A DNA stretch of 14,244 nt from Deltaproteobacteria bacterium (GTDB lineage Bacteria > Bdellovibrionota_F > JAHFAK01): assembly GCA_023250585.1 (NCBI GenBank), contig JAHFAK010000056.1:1-14244 (forward strand), written 5' to 3'. Position numbers and translations under genes: made by a program. The notes beneath the pieces are model-generated. The model saw nothing but the letters and a program-made list of their open reading frames with translations. It was not told the origin of the DNA and did not search any database. Positions 2,169 to 14,144 of this stretch are shown here, in pieces; positions within the stretch are counted from its first letter, which is position 1, and every line of letters begins with the position of its first letter.

Positions 2169-2300
2169 TCAGGGAACCTCTCAAAAAGGTCCAGATGCGA
2201 GGCGCACGCAAAGCCTTAACCGGAGCATACTCGGGTAGTATGTGAGGATTGTGGTTTTGCGTGCAACGATGCAGGTGGGCCTTTTTGAGAGGTTCCCTGA
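2169..2300. repeat. Palindromic intergenic element, copy 1 (21-bp perfect terminal inverted repeats)
   Basis: The arms 2169-2189 and 2280-2300 are perfect inverted repeats of 21 bp. Pairing continues inward with a G-U, three more pairs and further short runs. The middle holds a second stem, gcatac at 2225-2230 with gtatgt at 2238-2243, around a 7-base loop. Internal landmarks are cgaggcgc at 2198-2205 and gcaacga at 2263-2269. The same landmarks, in the same order and orientation and with an equivalent central stem, occur in the element at 13991-14144, so this is one member of a dispersed family. It fills almost the whole gap between hmgA and hisC. It has no coding capacity. It resembles a MITE or REP/BIME-like element in form; whether it moves, terminates transcription or stabilises mRNA is not shown. 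Confidence 0.8.
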
Positions 2301-2308
2301 TATAATGT

Positions 2309-3406
2309 ATGCAACAAAACCTTTCACATATTGCGCGCTATATTCATGATTTAATTCCGTATGAGCCAGGAAAAACGGTATCAGAAATTCAAAGAACCTA
2401 TGGCCTTTCGAATGTTATAAAGCTTGCGAGTAATGAAAATCCATTGGGACCAAGTCCACGAGTCATTGAAACACTCCAAAAAATCGATCCTCGTGTAATA
2501 TCTGATTATCCGGAAGATCAAGCTCCGTCATTGCACGCAGCGATTGCAAAAATAAATAATATACAGCCTGATCAAATTACGCTTGGCGCTGGATCTTCGG
2601 AGATTTTTGATTTGATTATTCAAATTTTTTTGAGCTCTGGGGGTGAGCTTTTAGTGAGTGAACATGCATGGAGTTTATATCGAATTTTTTCTCAAGCTTT
2701 AGGGAAAAAAGTAGTCATCATTAAAGATAAAAATTACCATCATGATTTACCAAGTTTTTTAAAAGCTATTAATGATTCCACGAGGCTTATCATTATTCCG
2801 TCGCCTAATAATCCAACAGGTACGTGGATTTCCTATAATGAATTAGAATCATTTATTACAGATATCCCTCCTTATATAACTGTTGTTATTGATGAAGCAT
2901 ATCATGAGTATATGACTGATAAAAGATATCAGACCGTTACGGGCTTAATTAAAAAACATCCGAATCTTATAGTATCGAGAACATTCTCGAAAATGTATGC
3001 ACTGGCTGGGTTACGTATTGGATATAGTATAGCGAGTGCTGAAGTTGCAGGTTTAATTAATAAATTTCGAAAATCGTTTACCGTCAGTTCGCTTGCGCTT
3101 TATGCAGCAGAAGTGGCGCTTTCAGATCATGAATATATTGAGAAAACAAAAAAAATAAATAGTGAAGGTATGAAACAATTACGTCAGGGGTTGCAGCAAC
3201 TTGGAGTCTCGATCATAGGCGATGCCGGTAATTTTGTATGTGCAGAATTTTCGATGAAAGCAAAAAGAATTTCCGATGAATTACTGTTAGCTGGTTTTAT
3301 TGTCCGTCCATTACTTCCATACAACATGGATCATCATTTACGAATTTCAATTGGAACCGAAGAACAAAATAGAGCTCTCCTTGAGAAGTTAGCGTCTTTG
3401 GAATGA
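2309..3406 (+). CDS. hisC: HisC-family aminotransferase (histidinol-phosphate or aromatic amino acid aminotransferase)
   Basis: A 365-residue, PLP-dependent, class I/II fold aminotransferase. The family pattern is complete: IKLASNENPLGPSP (37-50), the glycine-rich GAGSSE (93-98), SPNNPTG (165-171), the cofactor aspartate in VIDEAYHEY (D195), the Schiff-base lysine K228 in SRTFSKMYALAGLRIGY, and the carboxylate-binding arginine R345 in LRISIG. HisC converts imidazole-acetol phosphate to histidinol phosphate, but close relatives transaminate Tyr or Phe. Its position directly after the homogentisate genes leaves room for a tyrosine aminotransferase role, although no other his gene is present to decide. 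The ATG at 2309 gives the expected N-terminus. No spaced ribosome site exists; the nearest purine run (gagagg, 2287-2292) lies 16 bases away inside the right arm of the palindromic element. A second ATG at 2305 is out of frame. Confidence 0.88.
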   Translation: MQQNLSHIARYIHDLIPYEPGKTVSEIQRTYGLSNVIKLASNENPLGPSPRVIETLQKIDPRVISDYPEDQAPSLHAAIAKINNIQPDQITLGAGSSEIFDLIIQIFLSSGGELLVSEHAWSLYRIFSQALGKKVVIIKDKNYHHDLPSFLKAINDSTRLIIIPSPNNPTGTWISYNELESFITDIPPYITVVIDEAYHEYMTDKRYQTVTGLIKKHPNLIVSRTFSKMYALAGLRIGYSIASAEVAGLINKFRKSFTVSSLALYAAEVALSDHEYIEKTKKINSEGMKQLRQGLQQLGVSIIGDAGNFVCAEFSMKAKRISDELLLAGFIVRPLLPYNMDHHLRISIGTEEQNRALLEKLASLE

Positions 3407-3498
3407 AATTATCATACACCGAAGGATGGAAGAGCTGTTGTTGATTTGCCATACAATCGAAATTTAGATCATGCGTTTTGTGAGGTCAAAGTATGTAA
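3407..3498. other. Short gap between convergent hisC and the lipoprotein gene
   Basis: No convincing terminator hairpin was found between these two converging genes. The hisC frame stays open beyond its stop codon into the opposite-strand gene, with a protein-like stretch (DGRAVVDLPYNRNLDHAFCE) but no start codon. It may be a remnant of an older gene or chance. Confidence 0.3.
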
Positions 3499-5337
3499 TT
3501 ATTTTTTTCCAATATCATTGGGCGAATTATCAGAGAACACATTATCGTTTTTAATAATTACTTCACCAAGATTGTTAGTATCGCTATAAATACCGCCTCC
3601 GTCACTACTCGATAAGCCGTTAAGAGCATTATGAGTAATGGTATTATTCTCAATGACGATTATTCCCTTACTCCAGGTAAAAGTTCCCAAAGCGTAAGCG
3701 TAAATACCACCACCAAGAAGGTAATTACCATTGATACGATTATCTGAGATTATGTTATCAACAACATTCATGATTATTTGCTTATCTTTTCCGCCTCCAC
3801 TTGGTGTATAAATGAACATCCCCGCACCTCGACCATCAGGATAAGAAGGATTGGCTAATCCATCTGTTTCAACAACATTATCAATAATACTATTGTTGGA
3901 TATGTTATTTATGGCTGCAACATCCCGACGGGAATATCCTTCTCCATAAACCCCTGAACCTATACCTTCGCTTTTGTTGATTTTATTATGAGCCACCTGA
4001 TTATGATTGATATTCAAATATCCTTTAGCATTAATTCCTGCACCGGCAGAAGAAAAAATACTCGTATCTAAAACGTTATTTTCGATTCGGTTATAACGAA
4101 TATCAAGAGTACCAAAGGCATCGATCCCTCCTCCATTGGCTTCTATGATGTTGTTATGGATGAAAGATTTATTAGATATACTAACACCTTTGGGCGGGCT
4201 TACACAGCTCACTACACACGCTGCATAGTTTTCTGAATCTACACAGGAGTTTTTACATGTCTCTTCTGCTTGGCATTGTTCTGCCTCTTTTGTTGCTATT
4301 TTAGCAACATAGAGACCTGACTGACTATTATTGAGTATGGTACTATTAACAATAGATAACTGGCTATCAAGGCCAAGAAGTCGTGCATACACTCCATATC
4401 CTAATGAGTTATTTATTGTTCCGTGGGTATTCTTTATAGTGACTTGTTCAAGAGTAACATGTGCCTGTTTCGAATCGCAAGGGGCAGTATATATAGTAAT
4501 GGTATTGGTGTCTGGAGCTCTACAATTGTCAAACTCTATATTCCTAATATATACTCTTTCGTTCAGTGTAGGTGTTGATAACTGGATGTTAATAATTTTA
4601 TTTGAGGATCCTTCTTCTAGGTCATTGATTATCTTTGTTCCTTGTGTTCCAAACATTGTAAAGCTACCAAAAGATTTTTGATTCTGATTCCAAATTAGTA
4701 ACTGTTCTTTGATCTTAAAAACGCCATCAAGCATAAGACATCGAAGAGAAGGATTATTCAGTATTTCTGTAATTGCTCCATTGATTGACTGTCCATTCTC
4801 TGGATTATAGTCTATTGCATGCACGAGAAGTGTATTCGATTCATTACATTCACAAGCTTCAAGTTCTTGGTCGGGGTTAAAATTATTTGGACAAATATCT
4901 TCTTCATTGTTTATACCATCGCCATCTCGATCAGGATCAGAGATATTGAGAATTCCATCGTTATCAAAATCGTTAGGATTATGAGATGAATCGGCACAAA
5001 TAATGGGATCAGGTTGAGGAATATCAGGAGGATTGTTAGGAGGATTTGCACTACCATTACCTCCATCCTTGGTATCACTGCCTGGATCATCTTGTTGATC
5101 ATTTTGTATATTATTACTATCGGTTGTAGGGGTTTTTACGACTTCTTCTTGGTTTACTTGAGATGAATTTTCATCCTGAAGAACTATTTCGGAGATTTCT
5201 TCTCCTACAATATTCGTATCTTCTGGACGATCCAGATCAGATGAAGGATTGAGTCTTGTGAACGTCGTAGAGTTACAACTCACTAAGACAAGCATCAGCA
5301 AATAAAGAAGAAATTTTTTTGTTGATATACTCTTCAT
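3499..5337 (-). CDS. Secreted lipoprotein with thrombospondin type 3-like motif and parallel beta-helix domain
   Basis: A 612-residue protein of unknown function. The N-terminus is a lipoprotein signal peptide: KK at 7-8, a hydrophobic core at 9-19 and lipobox LVSC, with C21 as the predicted lipidated cysteine. Asn at +2 rather than Asp suggests outer membrane sorting. A disordered acidic, Pro/Asn/Asp-rich linker follows (about 30-115). Residues 123-150 read as Ca-binding thrombospondin type 3-like repeats (DFDNDG, DPDRDGDG, ICPNNFNPDQ). From about 200 to 605 the protein is a series of short Asn/Ile/Gly-rich units (NNxI, GGGIDA, GGGIYA), typical of right-handed parallel beta-helix (PbH1) folds. 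A cysteine-rich insert at 355-378 interrupts the coils. The start at 5337 has AAGGAA upstream. Related beta-helix proteins bind or cleave polysaccharides or act as adhesins, but no catalytic site is evident, so I give no function. Confidence 0.82.
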   Translation of the reverse strand: MKSISTKKFLLYLLMLVLVSCNSTTFTRLNPSSDLDRPEDTNIVGEEISEIVLQDENSSQVNQEEVVKTPTTDSNNIQNDQQDDPGSDTKDGGNGSANPPNNPPDIPQPDPIICADSSHNPNDFDNDGILNISDPDRDGDGINNEEDICPNNFNPDQELEACECNESNTLLVHAIDYNPENGQSINGAITEILNNPSLRCLMLDGVFKIKEQLLIWNQNQKSFGSFTMFGTQGTKIINDLEEGSSNKIINIQLSTPTLNERVYIRNIEFDNCRAPDTNTITIYTAPCDSKQAHVTLEQVTIKNTHGTINNSLGYGVYARLLGLDSQLSIVNSTILNNSQSGLYVAKIATKEAEQCQAEETCKNSCVDSENYAACVVSCVSPPKGVSISNKSFIHNNIIEANGGGIDAFGTLDIRYNRIENNVLDTSIFSSAGAGINAKGYLNINHNQVAHNKINKSEGIGSGVYGEGYSRRDVAAINNISNNSIIDNVVETDGLANPSYPDGRGAGMFIYTPSGGGKDKQIIMNVVDNIISDNRINGNYLLGGGIYAYALGTFTWSKGIIVIENNTITHNALNGLSSSDGGGIYSDTNNLGEVIIKNDNVFSDNSPNDIGKK

Positions 5338-5360
5338 CTTGCTCTTTCCTTATTGAGTTC

Positions 5361-5387
5361 ATGCATACTTAATAACTATGCATTATA
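5361..5387 (-). promoter_or_regulatory. Possible -10 box and dyad upstream of the lipoprotein gene
   Basis: On the minus strand a perfect TATAAT occupies 5382-5387, about 45 bases before the lipoprotein start. No good -35 hexamer sits at 16-18 bases from it. Overlapping it is a 7-bp inverted repeat, atgcata at 5361-5367 and tatgcat at 5377-5383, with a 9-base spacer, which could be an operator. The surrounding DNA is very AT-rich, so chance matches are easy. Confidence 0.35.
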
Positions 5388-5450
5388 GATGCCAAGTTTA
5401 TTCTTTTTCTTATATTATAACTATATGATTTTACTAATATAATCAATATA

Positions 5451-5471
5451 AAAGTTTCTAAGAGAAATTTT
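5451..5471. terminator. Weak hairpin between the synthase gene and the lipoprotein gene
   Basis: A 9-bp, AT-rich stem with one G-U pair joins 5451-5459 to 5463-5471 around a 3-base loop. T runs occur on both outer sides, so it could act weakly in either direction. It lies within the 206-bp gap 3' of the squalene/phytoene synthase gene, where a terminator would be expected. Stability is low because the stem is nearly all A-T. Confidence 0.3.
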
Positions 5472-5543
5472 TACCCGCTCCAAACAATGGTACAATGAAA
5501 ATTTTTCACTTTTCTATGATGAGATGAGATGATATGAAGAGTA

Positions 5544-6578
5544 CTAGACAAATCTTGCTTTTTTTCCAAACATGGCGAGGATAGATTTGTTCAGAGAAGT
5601 AAGTAAAATCTTTTTATTATTTTTTGGCGAATAGGTATTGTTTTCCATTGTTTTATATATGTGATGAGCCATGATGAATGGAAAAAGAATTGCGCCGCGG
5701 CCAAGTGATACACGTCGATAGTGATGGAATGAAAGATAGTGGGGAATATCCTTAAAAAGATGTCGTACATAGCCCACAAATTTTTGTCGAGCCTGATGAA
5801 TGTGCTCGTTGGTTAAATCATGAGTTCCATTTCTACTAATAGCTTGACCAAGATGAGGCTCATAGACTCTTCCTTCAGTAAAATCTTTTTCTATATCCTT
5901 TGCCATATTAACCATTTGAAGAATTTCTCCGAGGTGAGCACACACGTTGGTATGTTCTTTATTCATAATAATTTCATTATTGTAATGCCATTGAAAAAGT
6001 TCATCCAAAAATTCTCCAACACAGCCTGCGACGTTATAACAGTATTGTTGTAATTCAGCAGGAGTCGTAAGGCATCCGTGATTTTTTTCAAATACATTAA
6101 TATTCCAACACATGCCTTCAGACATTGTAGTAATTAAGCGAATAATAGATGCTTGCGGTTGACGTGGCAGTGTAAAAAAAGCTTCTCGCACCAGATTGCT
6201 TTTTTCTATCAGCAGTAGGGATGCCTGATCTTCTGGACTCGGAGATGTTTGTGCTGGAGGTACAATGAGATTTCTTCCCCGTAAGTGACGAGGAACGCCT
6301 TGTAATAACATGACACGATCTTTATTAACTATATGATTCAAATCTTCGTACGTATCAAGAATACGACAATAAAGATAAGAAACCGTGCAAGGAAGAACCG
6401 TTTGTTTAGGAAGCAATGATATAAAAAGCGAAAAAGTTCGTGATACATAGGGAAGAATCGCTAAAGAAAATTCTTTAGGATTACTTATGTTTTGTAGTTT
6501 GGTAAGAGGCGGATTATTTCGTGCTACGGTGAAATTTTTATAAAGTAATTGTATTCTATCGAGTGGAGAAAATTTCAT
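5544..6578 (-). CDS. Squalene/phytoene synthase family protein
   Basis: This 344-residue protein belongs to the family that joins two prenyl diphosphates head to head (2 FPP to squalene or presqualene diphosphate, 2 GGPP to phytoene). Both aspartate-rich Mg-diphosphate motifs are present: D75TYED79 in YLYCRILDTYEDL, and D228IEKD232 in MVNMAKDIEKDFTEGRVYEP. The conserved YNVAGCVGEFLDELF helix is at 181-195. The SRTFSLFISLLP stretch at 46-57 is the usual substrate-pocket N-terminus. The product cannot be fixed from sequence alone, and no desaturase, hopanoid cyclase or second synthase gene is nearby. Its ATG overlaps the ispH stop as ATGA and it has no Shine-Dalgarno, so translation is probably coupled to ispH, which supplies isoprenoid precursors. 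Membrane association through the C-terminal hydrophobic segment (about 295-306) is possible. Confidence 0.9.
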   Translation of the reverse strand: MKFSPLDRIQLLYKNFTVARNNPPLTKLQNISNPKEFSLAILPYVSRTFSLFISLLPKQTVLPCTVSYLYCRILDTYEDLNHIVNKDRVMLLQGVPRHLRGRNLIVPPAQTSPSPEDQASLLLIEKSNLVREAFFTLPRQPQASIIRLITTMSEGMCWNINVFEKNHGCLTTPAELQQYCYNVAGCVGEFLDELFQWHYNNEIIMNKEHTNVCAHLGEILQMVNMAKDIEKDFTEGRVYEPHLGQAISRNGTHDLTNEHIHQARQKFVGYVRHLFKDIPHYLSFHHYRRVSLGRGAILFPFIMAHHIYKTMENNTYSPKNNKKILLTSLNKSILAMFGKKARFV

Positions 6579-7537
6579 TGTGATGCTTGTGATAAATTAC
6601 GGAGTTCCTCGGGAATTGCAAAACGAACTTCTTCGGTTATATCGGTATATTCTTCAATATCTGAAATACCTTGTTTTTTGAAAAACTCTACACTTTGTTC
6701 TACCAGATATTCGGGTGCAGATGCCCCAGCAGTGATAGCAAGGACTTTGACGTCTTTAAGCCACTCAGGGTCCATTTCATAAATACCGTCTACCAAATAT
6801 GATTTTGCACCATGTGCAATTGATACTTCAGAGAGTCGTTTAGAATTGGAGGAGTTCTGACTTCCAATAACCAAGACCATATCAACTTTGTCTGCAAGAT
6901 CTTTTACCGCTAACTGGCGATTAGTGGTTGCATAACAAATGTCTTCTTTTGGAGGAAATTTTATGGTTGGGAATTTTTTCTTTAATGCTTCAACAATTGG
7001 TTTGGTATCATCAATACTTAACGTTGTTTGTGTAATAACTGCTGTTTTTGTGTAGGTCGTTGCAAGCTTCTCCACATCTTCAACAGAGGATACTAACGTA
7101 ATTTTATCTGGTGCTTCTCCCATTGTTCCAATAACTTCATCATGACCTGCATGACCTACAAGAAATATATGTCGACCTTCAAGCGCAAAGTGAATGGCTT
7201 CTCTATGTACTTTCGTAACAAGAGGGCAGGTTGCATCAATCGCTTTTAAACTTTTTTGTTTTGCCTTTTCATGGATTTCAGGAGCAATACCATGAGCGCT
7301 ATAAATTACAATTGATTTATCAGGTACTTCATCTAATTCATCAACAAATATTGCGCCAAGCTTCTTGAGTTCTTCAACGACATGAAAGTTATGCACAATC
7401 TCTTTTCGTACATAAATTGGTGGACCAAAATATTGTAAACTTAATTTAACGACATCAATTGCCCGGTCTACACCCGCACAAAAACCACGAGGTTTAGCGA
7501 GAAGGATTTTTTTCGGAAGATAAGGTAAAGTATTCAT
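6575..7537 (-). CDS. ispH: 4-hydroxy-3-methylbut-2-enyl diphosphate reductase (IspH/LytB)
   Basis: The last enzyme of the MEP isoprenoid pathway, a cytoplasmic iron-sulfur protein that reduces HMBPP to IPP and DMAPP. All three cluster cysteines are visible: C20 in KPRGFCAGVDRAI, C104 in IDATCPLV and C201 in DICYATTNRQ. Substrate residues also align with the E. coli enzyme: H49 in EIVHNFHV, H82 in SAHGI, H132 and E134 in GHDEVIGTMG, and the SSNS group at 229-232. The 320-residue length is normal. It sits between murB (48 bases upstream in transcription order) and the squalene/phytoene synthase gene, which overlaps its stop codon by four bases. This suggests a small operon of cell-wall and isoprenoid genes. 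The start at 7537 is preceded by only a weak purine stretch. Confidence 0.97.
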   Translation of the reverse strand: MNTLPYLPKKILLAKPRGFCAGVDRAIDVVKLSLQYFGPPIYVRKEIVHNFHVVEELKKLGAIFVDELDEVPDKSIVIYSAHGIAPEIHEKAKQKSLKAIDATCPLVTKVHREAIHFALEGRHIFLVGHAGHDEVIGTMGEAPDKITLVSSVEDVEKLATTYTKTAVITQTTLSIDDTKPIVEALKKKFPTIKFPPKEDICYATTNRQLAVKDLADKVDMVLVIGSQNSSNSKRLSEVSIAHGAKSYLVDGIYEMDPEWLKDVKVLAITAGASAPEYLVEQSVEFFKKQGISDIEEYTDITEEVRFAIPEELRNLSQASQ

Positions 7538-7585
7538 AATATCTTGTATCTAAACGCAAATGGATAAGGGAGTCAAGCGAGGGTT

Positions 7586-8602
7586 TTATATAATATTTAC
7601 TTCTGGTTCTAAATGAAGACCAAATGTTTTTTCTACTGATTTTTGTATAGCAATAATGAGCTCACGTAAATCTTGCGCATGTCCATTTCCATAATTTACC
7701 AGCACTAATGCATGGTTTTCTGAAACACCGATATTTCCAATTCTTTGGCCCTTAAAACCGCATTGTTCAATAAGCCATGCAGCTGAAACTTTTTCTTCTC
7801 GTTCAGAATGGACAAAAATTGGTAGCAATGGGTACGAATTTTTTAATGCACGAACTTTTTCTTTGGAAACAATGGGATTTTTAAAAAAGCTTCCCGCATT
7901 TGGAATTACTGCCGGATCAGGTAATTTACGTTGACGAATGTTAATGATTGCTTTGCGTAACGTCTGTAAAGTTATTTCGTTATATTTTTTTAATTCTTCT
8001 TTTACTCCCGTATAATCAGTAATGAGACGATGCTGTTTCGCCAGACGAAAGGTAACGTTGGTGATAATAATTTTGTTTGAAAGGGCTTCTTTAAATATAC
8101 TCGTGCGATAAGCAAAATGACAATCATTCTTGTTATAAGTTATTGATTCTTTTTTATTGATATGAATGCCTTCAACTTTTTCTATGCTATCTTTAACTTC
8201 AATCCCATAAGCTCCTATGTTTTGAATGGGAGCAGCGCCTACATTACCAGGAATATATGAAAGATTTTCAATACCCCCATAATTGTGTTCAACTGCATAG
8301 GCTACAAAACTGTCCCAATTTTCTCCAGCTCCAACTCGGAGCCACACATAGGCATCATTTTCTTGTATTTTTTGAATTCCTCGAATAGCCGGTTGTAAAA
8401 TAACTCCTTCGAAATCTTTGGTAAACACACAATTACTCCCACTTCCTAAAATAAAAAAAGGATGGGAGTATAAAGCCTTGTCTTCAAGATACATAAAGAT
8501 TTCCTGTGTACTTGAGAAACTAATGAAATAGGCGGCTCGAGCATTCAATCGAAATGTATGTTTATCACGTAATGAAATATTTTTTTTAAGATTCAGGGTC
8601 AT
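7586..8602 (-). CDS. murB: UDP-N-acetylenolpyruvoylglucosamine reductase (MurB, type I)
   Basis: This FAD-dependent cytoplasmic enzyme reduces UDP-GlcNAc-enolpyruvate to UDP-MurNAc in peptidoglycan synthesis. The FAD-binding region shows ILGSGSNCVF (51-60) and LSYIPGNVGAAPIQNIGAYG (114-133). The substrate and catalytic residues are Y165 and R166 in FAYRTSIFKE, the general-acid serine S238 in NAGSFFKNP, and the glutamate of the C-terminal LEPEV (331-335). The 338-residue length, the Tyr loop and the NAGSFFKNP form match the E. coli-like type I enzyme of Gram-negative bacteria. It is the first gene of the leftward cluster with ispH. No clear Shine-Dalgarno precedes the ATG at 8602. The start is kept because MTLNLKKNISLRDKHTFRLN has the family's usual short lead before the TF motif. 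Confidence 0.96.
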   Translation of the reverse strand: MTLNLKKNISLRDKHTFRLNARAAYFISFSSTQEIFMYLEDKALYSHPFFILGSGSNCVFTKDFEGVILQPAIRGIQKIQENDAYVWLRVGAGENWDSFVAYAVEHNYGGIENLSYIPGNVGAAPIQNIGAYGIEVKDSIEKVEGIHINKKESITYNKNDCHFAYRTSIFKEALSNKIIITNVTFRLAKQHRLITDYTGVKEELKKYNEITLQTLRKAIINIRQRKLPDPAVIPNAGSFFKNPIVSKEKVRALKNSYPLLPIFVHSEREEKVSAAWLIEQCGFKGQRIGNIGVSENHALVLVNYGNGHAQDLRELIIAIQKSVEKTFGLHLEPEVNII

Positions 8603-8647
8603 GAATGCGGCATTAGCATTTGATAGAATTCTTAATCAAGTTTTCTC

Positions 8648-8675
8648 TTTACATTTTTATATGTATCATTATGAT
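8648..8675 (+). promoter_or_regulatory. Sigma70-like promoter for the sco-cta operon
   Basis: TTTACA at 8648-8653 and TATGAT at 8670-8675, separated by 16 bases, each match the consensus at five of six positions. A transcript starting near 8682 would have a leader of about 27 bases before the sco ATG at 8709. It lies in the divergent gap between murB and sco, where a promoter is required. Confidence 0.55.
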
Positions 8676-8708
8676 CGCTCACCGTAACTATCCTTGCACT
8701 ACACTCTT

Positions 8709-9506
8709 ATGAAAAGAATTTTTTTTATATTTATAATTATTTTTGTATGCTTTCCTGCTTTTGCTAAAGCAGAAATAGGTATTTATCAGCAATTAGGAAA
8801 ATCTATTTCACTGGATTTAGTATTTAATGATGAAAAAGGCAATCCCGTTACCTTACGACAATTGACAAATAACAGACCATCTATACTTACTTTTGTATAC
8901 TATAAATGTCCTGGAATTTGTACCCCAGTATTACAAAGTATTGGCAAATTACTCGATCAACTCGAATCACCGTCTCTTCTTGAATCCACATCGCGTCTTA
9001 CTGTTGGGAAAGATTATTCAGTCATTGCACTGAGTATAGATCCAACTGAAAATCATACTCTTGCAGCAAGTAAGAAGAAAAATTATTATGCGGCAATGGA
9101 AAAAAATATTTCAGATACCGGATGGCGTTTTTTAACAGGATCTGCGGAAAATATTAAAAAAATTACTGAAGCTACAGGATTTACCTATGAAAAAAGAGAC
9201 GATGGAACATTCACTCATACCGCTACTTTGATAACTCTTACACGTGAGGGCAAAATTACTCGTTATATCTATGGAACGACTTATTTGCCTCTTGATGTGA
9301 GACTTGCACTGCTTGAGGCGTCACAAGGACGAGTTGGTCCAACTATTACTAAAGTCTTGCAGTATTGTTTTAGCTATGATCCTGCAGGAAGAAAGTATAC
9401 GTTGAATATCTTAAGAGTAGCAGGAACAACATCAACTTTAGCTGCAGTAGGTTTTTTTGTTTTTTTGATATTTTATTCACGAAGAAGAAATAAAGAACGA
9501 GGTTAA
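8709..9506 (+). CDS. sco: SCO1/SenC/PrrC-family copper chaperone of cytochrome c oxidase
   Basis: SCO proteins are thioredoxin-fold copper carriers that help build the CuA centre of subunit II, outside the cytoplasmic membrane. The copper ligands are C67 and C71 in YYKCPGICTPVL and H170 in GTFTHTATLIT (numbered from the ATG at 8709). A signal peptide or N-terminal anchor covers about 1-20 (KR, then a run of I and F, ending AFAKA). A second hydrophobic segment near 243-257, followed by RRRNKERG, suggests a C-terminal anchor with a cytoplasmic tail. The 265-residue length fits SCO proteins of oxidase operons. A TTG at 8694 would add five residues, but the ATG gives a proper signal peptide. Neither start has a clear Shine-Dalgarno. 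ctaD begins 5 bases after its stop. Confidence 0.93.
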   Translation: MKRIFFIFIIIFVCFPAFAKAEIGIYQQLGKSISLDLVFNDEKGNPVTLRQLTNNRPSILTFVYYKCPGICTPVLQSIGKLLDQLESPSLLESTSRLTVGKDYSVIALSIDPTENHTLAASKKKNYYAAMEKNISDTGWRFLTGSAENIKKITEATGFTYEKRDDGTFTHTATLITLTREGKITRYIYGTTYLPLDVRLALLEASQGRVGPTITKVLQYCFSYDPAGRKYTLNILRVAGTTSTLAAVGFFVFLIFYSRRRNKERG

Positions 9507-9511
9507 CACTC

Positions 9512-11113
9512 ATGTCAACACACGCTTCACAAAGTTTTTTAGAAGAAAAAGGCAAATATCCTGGAATTTTTTCATGGATATTTTCTACCGACCATAAAAG
9601 GATCGGCATATTGTATTTAGTTTCTATGCTTTCATTTTTTGCTGTAGGGGTGATGCTTGGAATAATGATACGCCTTGAATTGATTGCTCCTGGACAGACA
9701 ATCATGCCACCTCAGATGTATAATGCTATCTTCACGCTTCATGGGGTAATCATGATTTTTCTTTTTGTTATTCCAGGATTAGCAGCTCCCTTTGGAAATT
9801 TTTTCCTTCCTATTCTCATTGGTGCAAAAGATGTGGCATTCCCACGATTGAATCTTTTATCATGGTATTTATTTGTCGGCGGTGCTGCGATCGTTATTCT
9901 TTCTCTATTTACCGGTGGGGGCCCGCCTGATACGGGATGGACTTTTTATGTTCCCTACAGTTTACGAACTGGAACGAATGTTACGTTAGCAGTATTTGGG
10001 GCTTTTGTTTTAGGTTTTTCTTCAATATTAACCGGAGTTAATTTTGTATCAACTATTCATATGCTTCGTGCGCCGGGTATGAAACTTTCCCAAATGCCTT
10101 TATTTCCGTGGACACTCTATGCAACAGGTTGGGTACAAATTTTGGCAACACCTATATTATCAATTACACTATTGCTCATCATCCTTGAACGTGTTTTTGG
10201 TATTGGTCTTTTTGAAGCTTCAAAAGGAGGGGATCCTGTTCTTTATCAACATTTGTTTTGGATCTATTCACATCCAGCCGTATATATCATGATTCTTCCT
10301 GCAATGGGTGCGATTTCTGAAATGATTGCTACTTTTTCACAAAAACGAGTTTTTGGATATAAGGCTATGGTTGCTGCAACACTTTCAATCGCATTTGTTG
10401 GATACCTTGTATGGGGACATCACATGTTTGTGAGTGGACAAAGTGATATGGCAGTAATCATTTTTTCACTCTTAACATTTCTCGTTGCGATTCCTAGTGG
10501 AGTAAAAGTTTTTAATTGGGTTGCAACCCTCTATAAAGGGCGCATTAGCCTTGAGCCGCCGATGTTATTTTCTTTGTCATTTATTTTTCTCTTTTCGATT
10601 GGAGGATTATCAGGTCTTGTTCAAGGAGCCTTAGCAACGGATATTCACGTACACGATACGACCTTTGTTGTTGCACATTTTCATTATGTTATGTTTGGTG
10701 GCACCGGTTTTGCCTTCTTTGGAGCCCTACATTATTGGTTTCCAAAAATGTTTGGAAAAATGTACAATAAAAAAGTTGCAAGCGTTGCCTGGGCAATTAT
10801 GTTTGTAGGCTTTAATGTTCTTTACTTTCCGATGTTTATTATGGGTATGAGGGGTATGCCACGACGCTATTACGACTATTTACCTGAATTTCAGCCACTG
10901 CATTTTCTTTCAACAGTTGGATCATGGATTCTTGTAACGGGAATTATTATTTTATTTACCAATTTAATTGTAGCATTACGACGAAATAACAGAGCTCCAG
11001 CAAATCCATGGAATGGTGCAACGCTCGAATGGAAAATTCCATCTCCGCCACCGCTTGAAAATTTTGATGAAGAACCAAAAATAACCGGTGGGCCTTACGA
11101 ATTTACTCGGTAA
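9512..11113 (+). CDS. ctaD: Cytochrome c oxidase subunit I, A2-type heme-copper oxidase
   Basis: The catalytic 12-helix membrane subunit, which reduces O2 and pumps protons. All metal ligands are visible in this 533-residue protein: H77 and H391 for the low-spin heme; H254, H303 and H304 for CuB; H389 for the high-spin heme; and Y258, the tyrosine cross-linked to H254. Helix VI reads WIYSHPAVYIMILP. The glutamate of the common GHPEVY motif is Ala, and the preceding Tyr-Ser is the hallmark of the A2 subfamily (as in Thermus and Rhodothermus caa3 oxidases), where this Tyr-Ser pair is thought to replace Glu in the D-channel. D107 in KDVAFPRLN could be the D-channel entrance and K332 in GVKVFNWVA the K-channel lysine. 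It starts 5 bases after sco, with GAGG 9 bases before the ATG. Confidence 0.98.
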   Translation: MSTHASQSFLEEKGKYPGIFSWIFSTDHKRIGILYLVSMLSFFAVGVMLGIMIRLELIAPGQTIMPPQMYNAIFTLHGVIMIFLFVIPGLAAPFGNFFLPILIGAKDVAFPRLNLLSWYLFVGGAAIVILSLFTGGGPPDTGWTFYVPYSLRTGTNVTLAVFGAFVLGFSSILTGVNFVSTIHMLRAPGMKLSQMPLFPWTLYATGWVQILATPILSITLLLIILERVFGIGLFEASKGGDPVLYQHLFWIYSHPAVYIMILPAMGAISEMIATFSQKRVFGYKAMVAATLSIAFVGYLVWGHHMFVSGQSDMAVIIFSLLTFLVAIPSGVKVFNWVATLYKGRISLEPPMLFSLSFIFLFSIGGLSGLVQGALATDIHVHDTTFVVAHFHYVMFGGTGFAFFGALHYWFPKMFGKMYNKKVASVAWAIMFVGFNVLYFPMFIMGMRGMPRRYYDYLPEFQPLHFLSTVGSWILVTGIIILFTNLIVALRRNNRAPANPWNGATLEWKIPSPPPLENFDEEPKITGGPYEFTR

Positions 11114-11227
11114 TAATTTTTAGATATATATGTCGGGTGAGGGTTTAAAAAGATCGTAAAATTTTCTTGAATTAGAAAACCATTTATGTTTTTCTACTCA
11201 CCGTTTTAAAATAGATTACACAACATT
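11114..11227 (+). other. 114-bp gap within the oxidase operon with small hairpins
   Basis: This is the only sizeable gap in the operon. It contains a 6-bp AT stem, ttttct at 11162-11167 with agaaaa at 11174-11179 around a 6-base loop. There is also a longer-range pair, ggtgag at 11136-11141 with ctcacc at 11197-11202. Neither is followed by a U-tract. It could be an RNA processing or internal promoter region; a TAAAAT at 11207-11212 has only a poor -35 partner. No Shine-Dalgarno precedes the ctaE ATG. Confidence 0.3.
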
Positions 11228-12013
11228 ATGCAAGAAACAACAGCGCTCATACATGATCATGCAATACCTGCACAAGGTGCAAAAATAGGAATGTGGCTTT
11301 TTCTGTTTACCGAACTTTTGCTTTTTGGAGGTATGTTTTTGCTGTATGCAGTATATCGCATGTTATATCCCACAGATTTTCATTATGCAGCAACTGATTT
11401 AAATGTTTTTGTAGGAACCATTAATACGATTATTCTTCTCACGAGCAGCTTGACCATGGCGCTTTCAATTGCGGCGCTTGAACGTGGCAATAAAAAATTA
11501 TCGCTTGCAATGTTAGCAATAACTATCATATGTGGCTTAATTTTTATGGTGAATAAATATTTTGAATGGACTACAAAATTTCATCATGGAATATATCCAG
11601 GGTCAGAAGCGCTTGAAGCGAGAAGCCATGGAGAGAATCTCTTCTATGGCCTATACTTTGTTATGACCGGCTTACATGGCCTTCATGTGCTTATTGGGAT
11701 GATTGTGCTTGCGGTACTTTTTGTTTTCATTATGAAAAATCCTCATGAAAAAATTGCACTCAGTTCTCATCAGCTCAAAGGTATCTTAGGGTCCCGCTTA
11801 AGTATTATGAACGCAAATAATAAGACCCTCTGGCAGAGTGATCTCATTGATAAAAACCTAAAAGAAATGCGTGTTGAATTACGATATGAAGATCATAAGA
11901 AAGATAAAATCAATCATCGTGATTTAATTAAATTAGAAAACGGGGGGCTTTACTGGCATTTAGTAGATATAATTTGGATTTTTTTATTTCCTTTATTTTA
12001 TTTAATTACATAA
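11228..12013 (+). CDS. ctaE: Cytochrome c oxidase subunit III, with an internal hydrophilic insertion
   Basis: A membrane subunit that stabilises subunit I and supports proton uptake. Five membrane segments are visible at about 20-42, 60-82, 92-110, 138-168 and 239-260, the short five-helix form. Typical features are GAKIGMWLFLFTELLLFGG (17-35), E113 in KYFEWTTKF, the TGLHGLHVLIG stretch (147-157), and the closing GLYWHLVDIIWIFLFP. It has 261 residues, whereas bacterial five-helix relatives usually have about 190-210. The excess lies in one place: about residues 172-231, between the last two helices, form a highly charged loop not normal for the family. By analogy with mitochondrial subunit III this loop should face the cytoplasm. 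The ends of the gene are intact and in frame. The ATG follows a 114-bp gap after ctaD and lacks a clear ribosome site. Confidence 0.93.
   Translation: MQETTALIHDHAIPAQGAKIGMWLFLFTELLLFGGMFLLYAVYRMLYPTDFHYAATDLNVFVGTINTIILLTSSLTMALSIAALERGNKKLSLAMLAITIICGLIFMVNKYFEWTTKFHHGIYPGSEALEARSHGENLFYGLYFVMTGLHGLHVLIGMIVLAVLFVFIMKNPHEKIALSSHQLKGILGSRLSIMNANNKTLWQSDLIDKNLKEMRVELRYEDHKKDKINHRDLIKLENGGLYWHLVDIIWIFLFPLFYLIT
11788..11829. repeat. Nested inverted repeat inside the ctaE insertion
   Basis: An outer pair, agggtc at 11788-11793 with gaccct at 11824-11829, encloses an inner pair, tattat at 11803-11808 with ataata at 11817-11822, around an 8-base loop. The arms are asymmetric: 9 bases lie between the two stems on the left and 1 on the right. 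It falls in the segment coding for the extra hydrophilic loop of subunit III (codons about 187-201). It may mark an in-frame insertion, but it is short enough to be chance. Confidence 0.35.
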
Positions 12014-12034
12014 TTCATTGGATAATTGCATAGT

Positions 12035-12322
12035 ATGGAAAAACAGAGCGTACATACATCGCCTAGTTATACTCTTTATATCTTTATTTGGCTCAGTTTA
12101 CTTGTGGGTACAGGTTTGACTGTTGCTGTTGCTGGAGTAAATCTTCGTACTTTTGCTATCGTTGTTGCACTGCTCATTGCTACAGTCAAAACCACGCTCG
12201 TAATTTTTTACTTTATGCATCTCAAATACGAAGATCGACTTTTTAGAATTATGCTTATCTTTGCTATATCAACTCTTGCAGTTATTTTATCATTAACATT
12301 TGCAGATATTATATATCGGTAA
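12035..12322 (+). CDS. ctaF: Cytochrome c oxidase subunit IV (small CtaF/CyoD-like subunit)
   Basis: A 95-residue protein with three membrane segments at about 12-34, 38-60 and 69-92. The central segment ALLIATVKTTLVIFYFMHLKYEDRL is the family signature of the prokaryotic subunit IV found in caa3-type and related oxidases, where it helps assembly and stability. A TTG at 12026 would add three residues. The ATG at 12035 is chosen because it gives the usual length and the residues before it resemble nothing; the ribosome site is weak (a GGAT about 10 bases upstream). It starts 21 bases after ctaE and is followed closely by ctaC. Confidence 0.88.
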   Translation: MEKQSVHTSPSYTLYIFIWLSLLVGTGLTVAVAGVNLRTFAIVVALLIATVKTTLVIFYFMHLKYEDRLFRIMLIFAISTLAVILSLTFADIIYR

Positions 12323-12338
12323 GGAGTTTCACTCTATA

Positions 12339-12956
12339 ATGGAAAATATAATCCAACAGGTTGATTCGATATTTCTTTTCATTATCGCAATCAGTGCAGG
12401 TCTTTTGCTTTTAATCACTTTATTGATGATCATCTTTATTTTTAAATATCATAAAAATAAGCATCCTCAAGCAATTGATACGCATGAACATCCTTTCTTA
12501 GAAATTACATGGACAGTTATTCCAACGATTCTTGTTCTCTGTATGTTTTATTACGGAATGATCGGATATAATAACATGCGAAATCCACCCAAAGATTCAT
12601 TTGTCATTAAAGTTACGGGTAGACAATGGGAATGGGGATTTGAATATCCCAATACCAAAAAAACTAAAGAACTATATGTTCCTCAAAATAAACCAATAAA
12701 ATTATTAATGACTTCACTCGATGTTATTCATAGTTTTTTTATTCCTGCATTTCGAGTAAAAATGGATCTCATGCCAGGAAGAGAAACATTTCTTTGGTTT
12801 AAAGCAGAGAAATTAGGGGACTATGATGTATTTTGCGCTGAATATTGTGGGTTACTCCATTCAAAAATGTTGTCGAAAGTTCATGTAATGGATGAACAAA
12901 AATTTAATAACTGGTATGTAACAAACGAAGAAGTAAAAAATGAAACAAATCATTAA
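12339..12956 (+). CDS. ctaC: Cytochrome c oxidase subunit II (CuA subunit)
   Basis: Subunit II takes electrons from cytochrome c through its periplasmic CuA centre and passes them to subunit I. The protein has 205 residues, with two membrane helices (about 10-36 and 57-78) and a cupredoxin domain. The full CuA set is present: H131 in VIHSFFIP, then C166, E168, C170, H174 and M177 in FCAEYCGLLHSKM. The aromatic electron-entry stretch GRQWEWGFEYP is at 94-104. There is no fused cytochrome c domain, so this is not a caa3 subunit II despite the A2-type subunit I; a separate cytochrome c donor is implied. No cleavable signal peptide is evident. The ATG at 12339 follows AAGGAG by 12 bases, a rather long spacing. 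ctaC comes after ctaF instead of leading the operon. Confidence 0.97.
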   Translation: MENIIQQVDSIFLFIIAISAGLLLLITLLMIIFIFKYHKNKHPQAIDTHEHPFLEITWTVIPTILVLCMFYYGMIGYNNMRNPPKDSFVIKVTGRQWEWGFEYPNTKKTKELYVPQNKPIKLLMTSLDVIHSFFIPAFRVKMDLMPGRETFLWFKAEKLGDYDVFCAEYCGLLHSKMLSKVHVMDEQKFNNWYVTNEEVKNETNH

Positions 12957-13842
12957 GGCTTATCTAGACTTGGCAAAAATACGAATAACCACGCTTTCTA
13001 CCGCTTCATGTATAACAGGCTATATTATTGGCGCAGGTGTAATCGATCGAGGAATTATTGCTCCAACGCTTGGTATTTTTTTACTTGCCTGTAGTGCCTG
13101 TACGCTTAATCACATTCAAGATCGGAATATAGATGCACGTATGAATCGTACACAGACTAGGCCTCTCCCTCTAGGTATTATAAGCTTACAGGCTGCATGG
13201 ATCTACACTATAATTCTTTTTCTTGCCGGTTCATTTATTTTATATAGAGGAGCAAATGCTATAGCTTTGGCTTTAGGCTTAATTGCTTTAGTATGGTATA
13301 ATGGAATTTATGCGGCCTTAAAAAGAGTAACCTCGCTTGCAGTTATTCCCGGTTCAATAATTGGCGCTATTCCTCCTCTTGTTGGCTGGGCAGCTACTGG
13401 TCAACCGCTCAGTGATCCTCGAATTATTATTTTTTCTTTTTTACTTTTTATCTGGCAAATTCCTCATTTTTGGTTACTCTTAATTAGGTATAAAAAAGAT
13501 TATGAAGAATCAGGACTGCCTACATTAACACGTATATTTTCATTACCACAACTCGGACGTATTATTTTTATTTGGACCGTTGCTACCGCCCTCATAGGAC
13601 TTCTTTTACCTTTATATAATGAAGTATATCATCCTCTTGTCTCTGGCTCATTAGTCATCATGGCAGTATGGCTCATTTTTACCTGTAGTAATTTACTTAT
13701 TCCATCCCGTGTAACATTTGCTTTTAGAAATGCTTTTCGCAATATTAATATTTTTATACTCCTTGTAATGATTGTGCTGGTACTTGAACGCTTACTCTAT
13801 TTTACTCCTGCCCATCAATTAACGGTTTTTTTAGAAAGATAA
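12940..13842 (+). CDS. ctaB: Protoheme IX farnesyltransferase (heme O synthase)
   Basis: A UbiA-family integral membrane prenyltransferase that adds farnesyl to protoheme, making heme O, the precursor of heme A for the oxidase encoded upstream. The first diphosphate-binding motif reads N57HIQDRNIDARMNRTQTRPLP, the heme O synthase form of NxxxDxxxD followed by MxRTxxRPL. The second acidic motif is YKKDYEESGLP at 184-194, and IWQIPHFWLL just before it is characteristic of CtaB. About eight membrane helices fill the 300 residues. The start lies inside ctaC with a 17-base overlap, so the two are probably translationally coupled. A heme A synthase (CtaA) is not in the window and may lie elsewhere. 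The farnesyl donor links this gene to isoprenoid supply. Confidence 0.96.
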   Translation: MKQIIKAYLDLAKIRITTLSTASCITGYIIGAGVIDRGIIAPTLGIFLLACSACTLNHIQDRNIDARMNRTQTRPLPLGIISLQAAWIYTIILFLAGSFILYRGANAIALALGLIALVWYNGIYAALKRVTSLAVIPGSIIGAIPPLVGWAATGQPLSDPRIIIFSFLLFIWQIPHFWLLLIRYKKDYEESGLPTLTRIFSLPQLGRIIFIWTVATALIGLLLPLYNEVYHPLVSGSLVIMAVWLIFTCSNLLIPSRVTFAFRNAFRNINIFILLVMIVLVLERLLYFTPAHQLTVFLER

Positions 13843-13855
13843 TAATAGTATGATA

Positions 13856-13971
13856 AAGGAATGTGTAATGTTCTCTTTTTTAATTTCTATCGACGTCGCT
13901 TCCATAATACTATTAAGAATGGGGCAAGCGCGATCGATAGAAATTAAAAAAGAGAACATTACACATTCCTT
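13856..13971. repeat. 38-bp perfect inverted repeat (long hairpin) just after ctaB
   Basis: Positions 13856-13893 and 13934-13971 are exact reverse complements over 38 bases, with a 40-base loop. Within the loop the pairing resumes after a 3x3 mismatch with cgctt at 13897-13901 and aagcg at 13926-13930, extending the cruciform. It begins 14 bases after the ctaB stop. There is no T-run after the right arm and no clean target-site duplication at the ends. Its arm sequence is unrelated to the element before hisC. It could be a MITE-like insertion, an unusual terminator or an mRNA 3'-end stabiliser; the sequence alone does not decide. Confidence 0.9.
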
Positions 13972-13990
13972 ACAGAGCTAATGAAGGTTA

Positions 13991-14144
13991 CTATACTGAA
14001 CGACATAAATAATTGCGCATACGCAACGACAGAACGAGCAGCCCGAGGCGCGACGAAATCGAGGAATGAGGCGTACACGATAGTACGCTGCAATTCCGAG
14101 ATGAGGAGCAACGAAGGTATGCAAAGTTATGACGTTGCGTATAG
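13991..14144. repeat. Palindromic intergenic element, copy 2
   Basis: Outer arms 13991-14008 and 14127-14144 pair at 15 of 18 positions, and an alternative 10-bp perfect pair joins 14019-14028 with 14133-14142. The centre is a perfect 6-bp stem, gcgtac at 14071-14076 with gtacgc at 14083-14088, flanked by the near-complementary cgaggaat and attccgag. It shares with the element at 2169-2300 the ordered landmarks cgaggcgc (14044-14051), a central GYRTAC...GTAYGY stem with ta just before the right half, and gcaacga (14108-14114). The outer arms differ, so the family is defined by its core. It ends 8 bases before the next gene. Confidence 0.7.

Follow-up and report, generated by a model that had tools for sequence, protein, structure and literature searches.

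ERIC is an enterobacterial repeat that has been known since about 1990, and we know of no mover for it. Its copies have been placed only in Enterobacteriaceae and Vibrionaceae (PMC10969869). Two other short repeats are close in form. YPAL is flanked by duplications that vary from 3 to 26 bp, and RUP has ends in common with IS630-Spn1 (PMC2229807). The elements described here come from a 2.24-Mb draft genome whose class is sparsely sampled. They are ERIC-like and not ERIC proper, because they depart from it in target duplication (TA for ERIC) and in host range. We put at about 70% the probability that they are MITE-like hairpins, mobile but non-autonomous, in a superfamily that also holds ERIC.

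The window is one whole contig of this genome (C120; 14,244 nt), and all features given for it lie on the forward strand. The first-pass annotation had reported two palindromic elements in it. Both (A and B) were found, and an extra left unit moves their true starts to 2145 (A) and 13992 (B). The ends of the elements were taken from family alignments and not from automatic palindrome extension, which overshoots. The elements were scored with R1, a covariance model built from 17 A-type sequences. Element B, a third family (D), and ERIC were left out of this model.

Element A (2145 to 2296) has a homogentisate dioxygenase-like gene on its left and hisC on its right. Its start abuts the upstream stop codon, and its end is 12 bases 5' of the next start codon. 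The stop codon is TAA at 2142 to 2144, the end of the homogentisate dioxygenase-like open reading frame (846 to 2144), and it falls within the left copy (CTAA, 2141 to 2144) of a putative target-site duplication. The right copy, CTGA at 2297 to 2300, is imperfect and matches at three of four bases. The outer left unit contains 27 bp (2145 to 2171). In it the terminal motif (GGACTCTTTAGAAAAA...) occurs a second time, and most A copies in the genome have this unit. The inner palindrome (2172 to 2296) is about 125 to 127 bp long, the size of ERIC. It contains the conserved folded core at 2191 to 2276, which matched R1 at 86.2 bits (E = 5.6e-19), this copy itself being among the 17 sequences of the model. 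The basal motifs are GAGGC at 2199 to 2203 and CAACG at 2264 to 2268, and their AGGC and AACG are invariant in 17 of 17 sequences. The apical core is CCGGAGCATAC-loop-GTATGTGAGGATT with a GGA/GA internal loop (2220 to 2250). The outer arms form a near-perfect inverted repeat (2165 to 2198 and 2271 to 2304; 88% over 34 nt). The predicted folding energy is -87 kcal/mol, with a z score of -14 against shuffles.

Element B (13992 to 14143) lies 3' of a ctaB-like gene. Its outer left unit contains 26 bp (TATACTGAACGACATAAATAATTGCG; 13992 to 14017), and its inner palindrome contains about 126 bp (14018 to 14143). The extra left units of A and B (26 to 28 bp) each repeat the element's own terminal sequence. 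The folded core of B (14037 to 14121) was the second-best match in the window to R1, which holds no B sequence, at 28.3 bits (E = 4.3e-5). As a control, a near-perfect but unrelated palindrome of the window scored 14.9 bits. The basal motifs are again GAGGC (14045 to 14049) and CAACG (14109 to 14113). The apical stem is GGCGTAC-loop-GTACGC (14070 to 14088) and lacks the GGA/GA loop. The predicted folding energy is -51 kcal/mol (z score of -5.7 against shuffles). The core that the first-pass annotation assigned to both elements is thus shared in part: AGGC, AACG, and a GCGTAC/GTACGC stem are present in B, and the internal loop of A is not. The pattern CGAGGCGCR-N40..70-GCAACGA, drawn from the letters that were reported as shared, has exactly two matches in the window and none in 200 shuffles.

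Another inverted repeat lies directly upstream of B at 13856 to 13971. It has 46-nt arms that are 93% complementary and a 24-nt loop. The motifs of the ERIC-like elements are absent from it, and its loop region is found again on contig C159 near 30970.

Copies were counted across the genome by sequence and model searches. R1 gave 65 matches at E <= 1, and 38 of these were strong and A-like (E < 1e-11), in two subfamilies. The exact A core had 32 genomic matches, against 0 for a reversed control pattern. A DNA search retrieved about 25 to 30 copies of B. Family D, with the ends ATACTAAGTTGCATTCAAA, was found among the weaker R1 matches and contains about 35 copies. Many of these are 97 to 100% identical and therefore recent. 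The first-pass prediction of many intergenic copies was borne out by these numbers. A, B, and D have unrelated terminal repeats and one folded core in common. Some copies lack the middle, and of others only end pieces remain.

Several copies have features of their own. A further hairpin (TCCTGCTTCGTTCC..GGAACTACGCAGGA) is nested at one site in B copies (C115:863-1129, C113:52158-52352, C70:4165-4415, and C157:4196-4428). It is flanked by a 7-bp repeat, GCARYGA, which varies between copies and matches within each copy, and this suggests that the nested hairpins are independent site-specific insertions. In the B copy at C19:17293-17412, the palindrome runs perfectly into the flanks (TTGATCGTTATA/TATAACGATCAA), as if the element had entered the centre of a palindrome that was already there. 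In about 9 of the 11 complete D copies, the same single base stands on either side, just outside ATACT...AGTAT, and all four letters occur. No duplication longer than this single base was seen flanking complete D copies. A short palindromic repeat of another kind (TCATTGCGAGGAGG...GACGAAGCAATCTC) has an IS200-type transposase gene (145 aa) nearby, at C13:3042-3410.

Insertion of A copies occurs mostly at gene ends and leaves short target duplications. In 13 of 23 copies, 4 bp or more are repeated perfectly on the two flanks (TAAA, TTTA, TATA, CTTAT, and others). Permuted right flanks gave a mean of 3.05, and 0 of 20,000 permutations reached 13 (p < 5e-5). A 151-bp member is present between hemE and nfi in some strains of Escherichia coli. 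K-12 has the empty site ACCG-CTAAG-GAGTG, the filled allele reads CTAAG-element-CTAAG, and the hemE stop codon is contained in the duplicated CTAAG. The mobility proposed in the first-pass annotation is backed by the duplications of A and by this empty site. In the window genome, an end of an A copy lies within -6 to +4 bp of 25 of 38 facing gene ends, versus 2 of 21 gene starts. For the right end the counts are 16 of 22 gene ends and 0 of 8 starts, and for the left end 9 of 16 and 2 of 13. This distribution may reflect targeting, or selection against harmful insertions. The elements are small and multicopy, contain no open reading frame, and have terminal inverted repeats and target duplications, as do MITEs in the general sense.

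Ordinary MITEs are the first alternative. A, B, and D would each be derived by deletion from, or be parasitic on, a different IS, and the core would be a module that hitchhikes and is exchanged between transposon ends. The source of A would be IS5-like (YTAR targets), and those of B and D would be IS630-like (TA targets). The short duplications of A are of the YTAR type, CTAAG in E. coli, and the terminal inverted repeats fit as well. The ends of A presumably resemble those of IS5-type elements. One chimera (C152:11255-11460) joins a B left half to an A right half with the junction in the core, so halves do recombine. A parasite of a transposase should, however, keep its ends and lose its core, and the opposite is seen. 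An IS with these ends was found neither in the window genome nor in three halomonad genomes or viral contigs, although draft assemblies may miss an IS. We regard this explanation as a tentative one that deserves real weight.

The searches behind that result covered several sources. The assembly of the window genome yielded no autonomous element with matching ends, and its two matches to DDE_Tnp_1 (PF01609) are without these ends. In the three halomonad genomes, nearly all of about 110 terminal motifs pair at the size of the short element, and the unpaired ones that were checked flank no transposase. Nine matches to A-like ends were retrieved from viral contigs, and in none of them did paired ends enclose a transposase. 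No recurrent mover-like (transposase) gene family was found beside the GTDB copies.

The arms vary in sequence and stay paired. Six inner pairs beside the core were compared in 37 non-redundant elements. They use all four Watson-Crick types and contain 122 Watson-Crick cells, versus 65 +/- 6 after shuffling of partners. In the 17-sequence cross-phylum alignment, changes on both sides occur in 99 cells, versus 37 +/- 5 in shuffles. The compensatory stem changes that the first-pass annotation had named as a check are thus present beyond chance. The covariation score of this alignment is 0.451, versus 0.160 +/- 0.017 shuffled and at most 0.146 in slid controls; these covariation figures are not p-values, as the sequences lack phylogenetic independence. 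One G.U pair and the internal loops are also invariant in this alignment. Judged from these comparisons, a two-part folded core is conserved on one strand, and the terminal arms differ by family yet stay complementary. The constant core with differing, self-complementary arms described in the first-pass annotation therefore holds within the genome (A, B, and D) and across phyla.

Arm mismatches on the core strand were counted in an alignment that scores every mismatch equally. The 56 elements contain 73 G.A versus 6 C.T mismatches and 50 G.T versus 29 A.C. The A copies of the window genome contain 51 G.T versus 7 A.C, and its B copies contain 39 G.A versus 1 C.T. Double-stranded or cruciform DNA would make these classes equal, so one specific strand evidently folds; RNA and single-stranded DNA both fit. 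The D arms contain 31 paired changes on both sides versus 8.2 shuffled, with 8 one-sided changes that are still paired and 15 that are unpaired. Because D copies alter both arms together, the joint changes in young copies point to copying of arm from arm, or to pairing that is needed at movement.

A strand-specific constraint on hairpins would also be expected of REPIN/BIME-type elements moved by RAYT (the REP-associated tyrosine transposase, an HUH enzyme), which the first-pass annotation had named as one transposase to look for. HUH enzymes recognise folded single-stranded DNA, and the genome contains four Y1_Tnp matches. None of the RAYT loci checked contains a copy of the core, however, and RAYT as the mobilising enzyme is not supported. 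REPINs have conserved ends and variable middles, the reverse of what is found here, and elements of this class are not expected to make target duplications. We consider movement by RAYT very unlikely.

The core was also retrieved far from the window genome. Its A form is AACC-GGA-GCRTAY-loop-RTAYGT-GA-GG-A-TT, and its basal motifs are AGGC and AACG. AGGC, CCGGAGC.TA, TA.GTGAGGATT, and AACG are invariant in the 17-sequence alignment. Among the GTDB genome matches listed, more than 115 stretches contain the exact A core. The listed matches are from Enterobacterales, Halomonadaceae, Legionellales, Burkholderiales, Alistipes, Chlorobiaceae, Desulfobacterales, Syntrophus, Nitrospirota, Rokuibacteriota, Peregrinibacteria, and Bacillota. 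By record titles, the phyla among them are Pseudomonadota, Bacteroidota (including Chlorobiaceae), Desulfobacterota, Nitrospirota, Rokuibacteriota, Peregrinibacteria, and Bacillota. With the window's own class counted in, the matches listed come from at least seven or eight phyla. All core-bearing stretches from GTDB are long imperfect palindromes. A model search of 191 other genomes gave matches in 9, with 1 to 18 copies each and a different family in each. The core is present in only 7 stretches among 2.9 million viral contigs, and a phage element was ruled out on this count. No published description of the core letters was found in the literature, which is weak evidence since such sequences often sit in figures or supplements.

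The relation to ERIC was examined with real ERIC copies, taken from E. coli, Klebsiella, and Enterobacter records. R1, which is free of ERIC, gave 31.0, 22.3, and 20.8 bits for its top three matches on these copies (E = 3e-6, 4e-4, and 9e-4). R2 is a covariance model of three ERIC copies alone. Its end-to-end matches to D copies reached 27.6 bits (E = 9e-4), and it scored 37.5 bits (E = 6e-6) on an element from Pseudodesulfovibrio. It also matched the window's element A end to end at 21.9 bits (E = 0.0035), a match that proves nothing alone because an unrelated palindrome in the window also scored 21.9 bits. The link to ERIC thus rests on D, the Pseudodesulfovibrio match, R1, and the register of motifs. 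In ERIC and in inner A, RAGGC is at 25 to 27, GGAGC at 50 to 52, GTGA at 67 to 70, and YAACG at 91 to 92, in a unit of 125 to 127 bp. This register is a stronger argument than the R2 match to the window's A. D and inner B have the first and last of these motifs (RAGGC and YAACG) in common with ERIC. Of random hairpins, 0.16% contained the basal pair, and 0 of 300,000 contained the basal and apical motifs together. The unit is 125 bp long in D and about 125 to 127 bp in A and B without the outer unit. The inverted repeat GGAGC.TA ... TA.GTGA is present in A, present in part in D (GTACGT-TGAGGA), and absent from B. Neither the membership of ERIC nor the reach over many phyla was part of the first-pass annotation.

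One E. coli copy lies in a region with a known transcript. The stem-loop between glnA and glnL, in the region of the sRNA GlnZ, carries the core at 45.5 bits, and the element is at 1190 to 1345 of the retrieved locus. The GlnZ region is longer in K-12 than in O157-type strains (PMC9731577). The same paper cites cleavage of the long stem-loop by RNase III in vitro. The stem-loop is described there as part of the sRNA and not as a repeat family (PMC9731577). Because the K-12 copy downstream of glnA is in the GlnZ region, such elements are transcribed at least there. The elements could be structured RNAs with a cellular function, regulatory or as RNase processing elements, that are repeated by chance. 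The covariation, the invariant G.U pair, and the invariant internal loops are consistent with this, and ERIC copies alter mRNA decay in Yersinia (PMC10969869). The copies have no preferred orientation relative to neighbouring genes, however, and this speaks against their acting in general as 3' UTR elements. They also have no consistent gene neighbourhood, they are polymorphic for presence within E. coli, and no Rfam family was matched above the gathering score. A cellular RNA function is an unlikely explanation of the family.

If the elements are mobile hairpins related to ERIC, they would be moved in trans by an enzyme whose gene lies elsewhere. It would most likely recognise a folded single strand through the core, either as single-stranded DNA during transposition or replication or as RNA, because the arms are free to change while they stay paired and the core is not. 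The ends would need complementarity more than a given sequence. One arm may serve as the template for the other in a fold-back intermediate, as the joint arm changes in near-identical copies suggest. From the conserved core and the joint arm changes in D, we infer that recognition of the fold is favoured. A wider reading would make ERIC one branch of pan-bacterial mobile hairpins defined by a folded single-strand core, with a dedicated trans machinery that recognises the core and inserts at gene ends. The core would be recognised as single-stranded DNA or RNA, and reverse or fold-back copying might be involved, in a bacterial counterpart of SINE-like parasitism. We find this wider reading doubtful. 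A family of many phyla that includes ERIC, with a defined core and freely covarying ends, would offer a concrete handle on the mover of ERIC. Searches for co-occurring enzymes and mutational tests of core versus ends become possible. The downstream region of E. coli glnA, the source of GlnZ, contains such an element.

The elements can be compared with known systems. Like ERIC (IRU, RU-1), they are imperfect, intergenic, mobile palindromes of 125 to 127 bp, with AAGGC and CAACG at equal coordinates (about 27 and 92), and A also has GGAGC and GTGA around the apical stem. A long form of ERIC in Salmonella carries an insertion nested immediately 3' of the apical hairpin, near the site of the nested hairpin in B copies. 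Unlike ERIC, they have other terminal repeats, A and B are extended on the left by a unit of 26 to 27 bp, and B lacks the apical motif. The duplications of A are 4 bp long, whereas those of ERIC are reported as TA; the ends of B and D are TATA. Their hosts lie far outside Enterobacteriaceae and Vibrionaceae. YPAL (RU-2; 168 bp) of Yersinia is likewise a long, mobile, intergenic palindrome. It was rejected as the same element, as the published RU-2 sequence is without the GGAGC.TA/TA.GTGA core (PMC2759123). RUP of Streptococcus pneumoniae, like other IS630-type MITEs, is a non-autonomous hairpin flanked by TA, of about 107 bp; for the elements described here, in contrast, no IS with matching ends was found. 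REPINs and BIMEs are also intergenic hairpins, thought to move in trans with RAYT. Their conserved part is the ends, whereas that of the present elements is the middle, with ends that vary and no linked RAYT in the loci checked.
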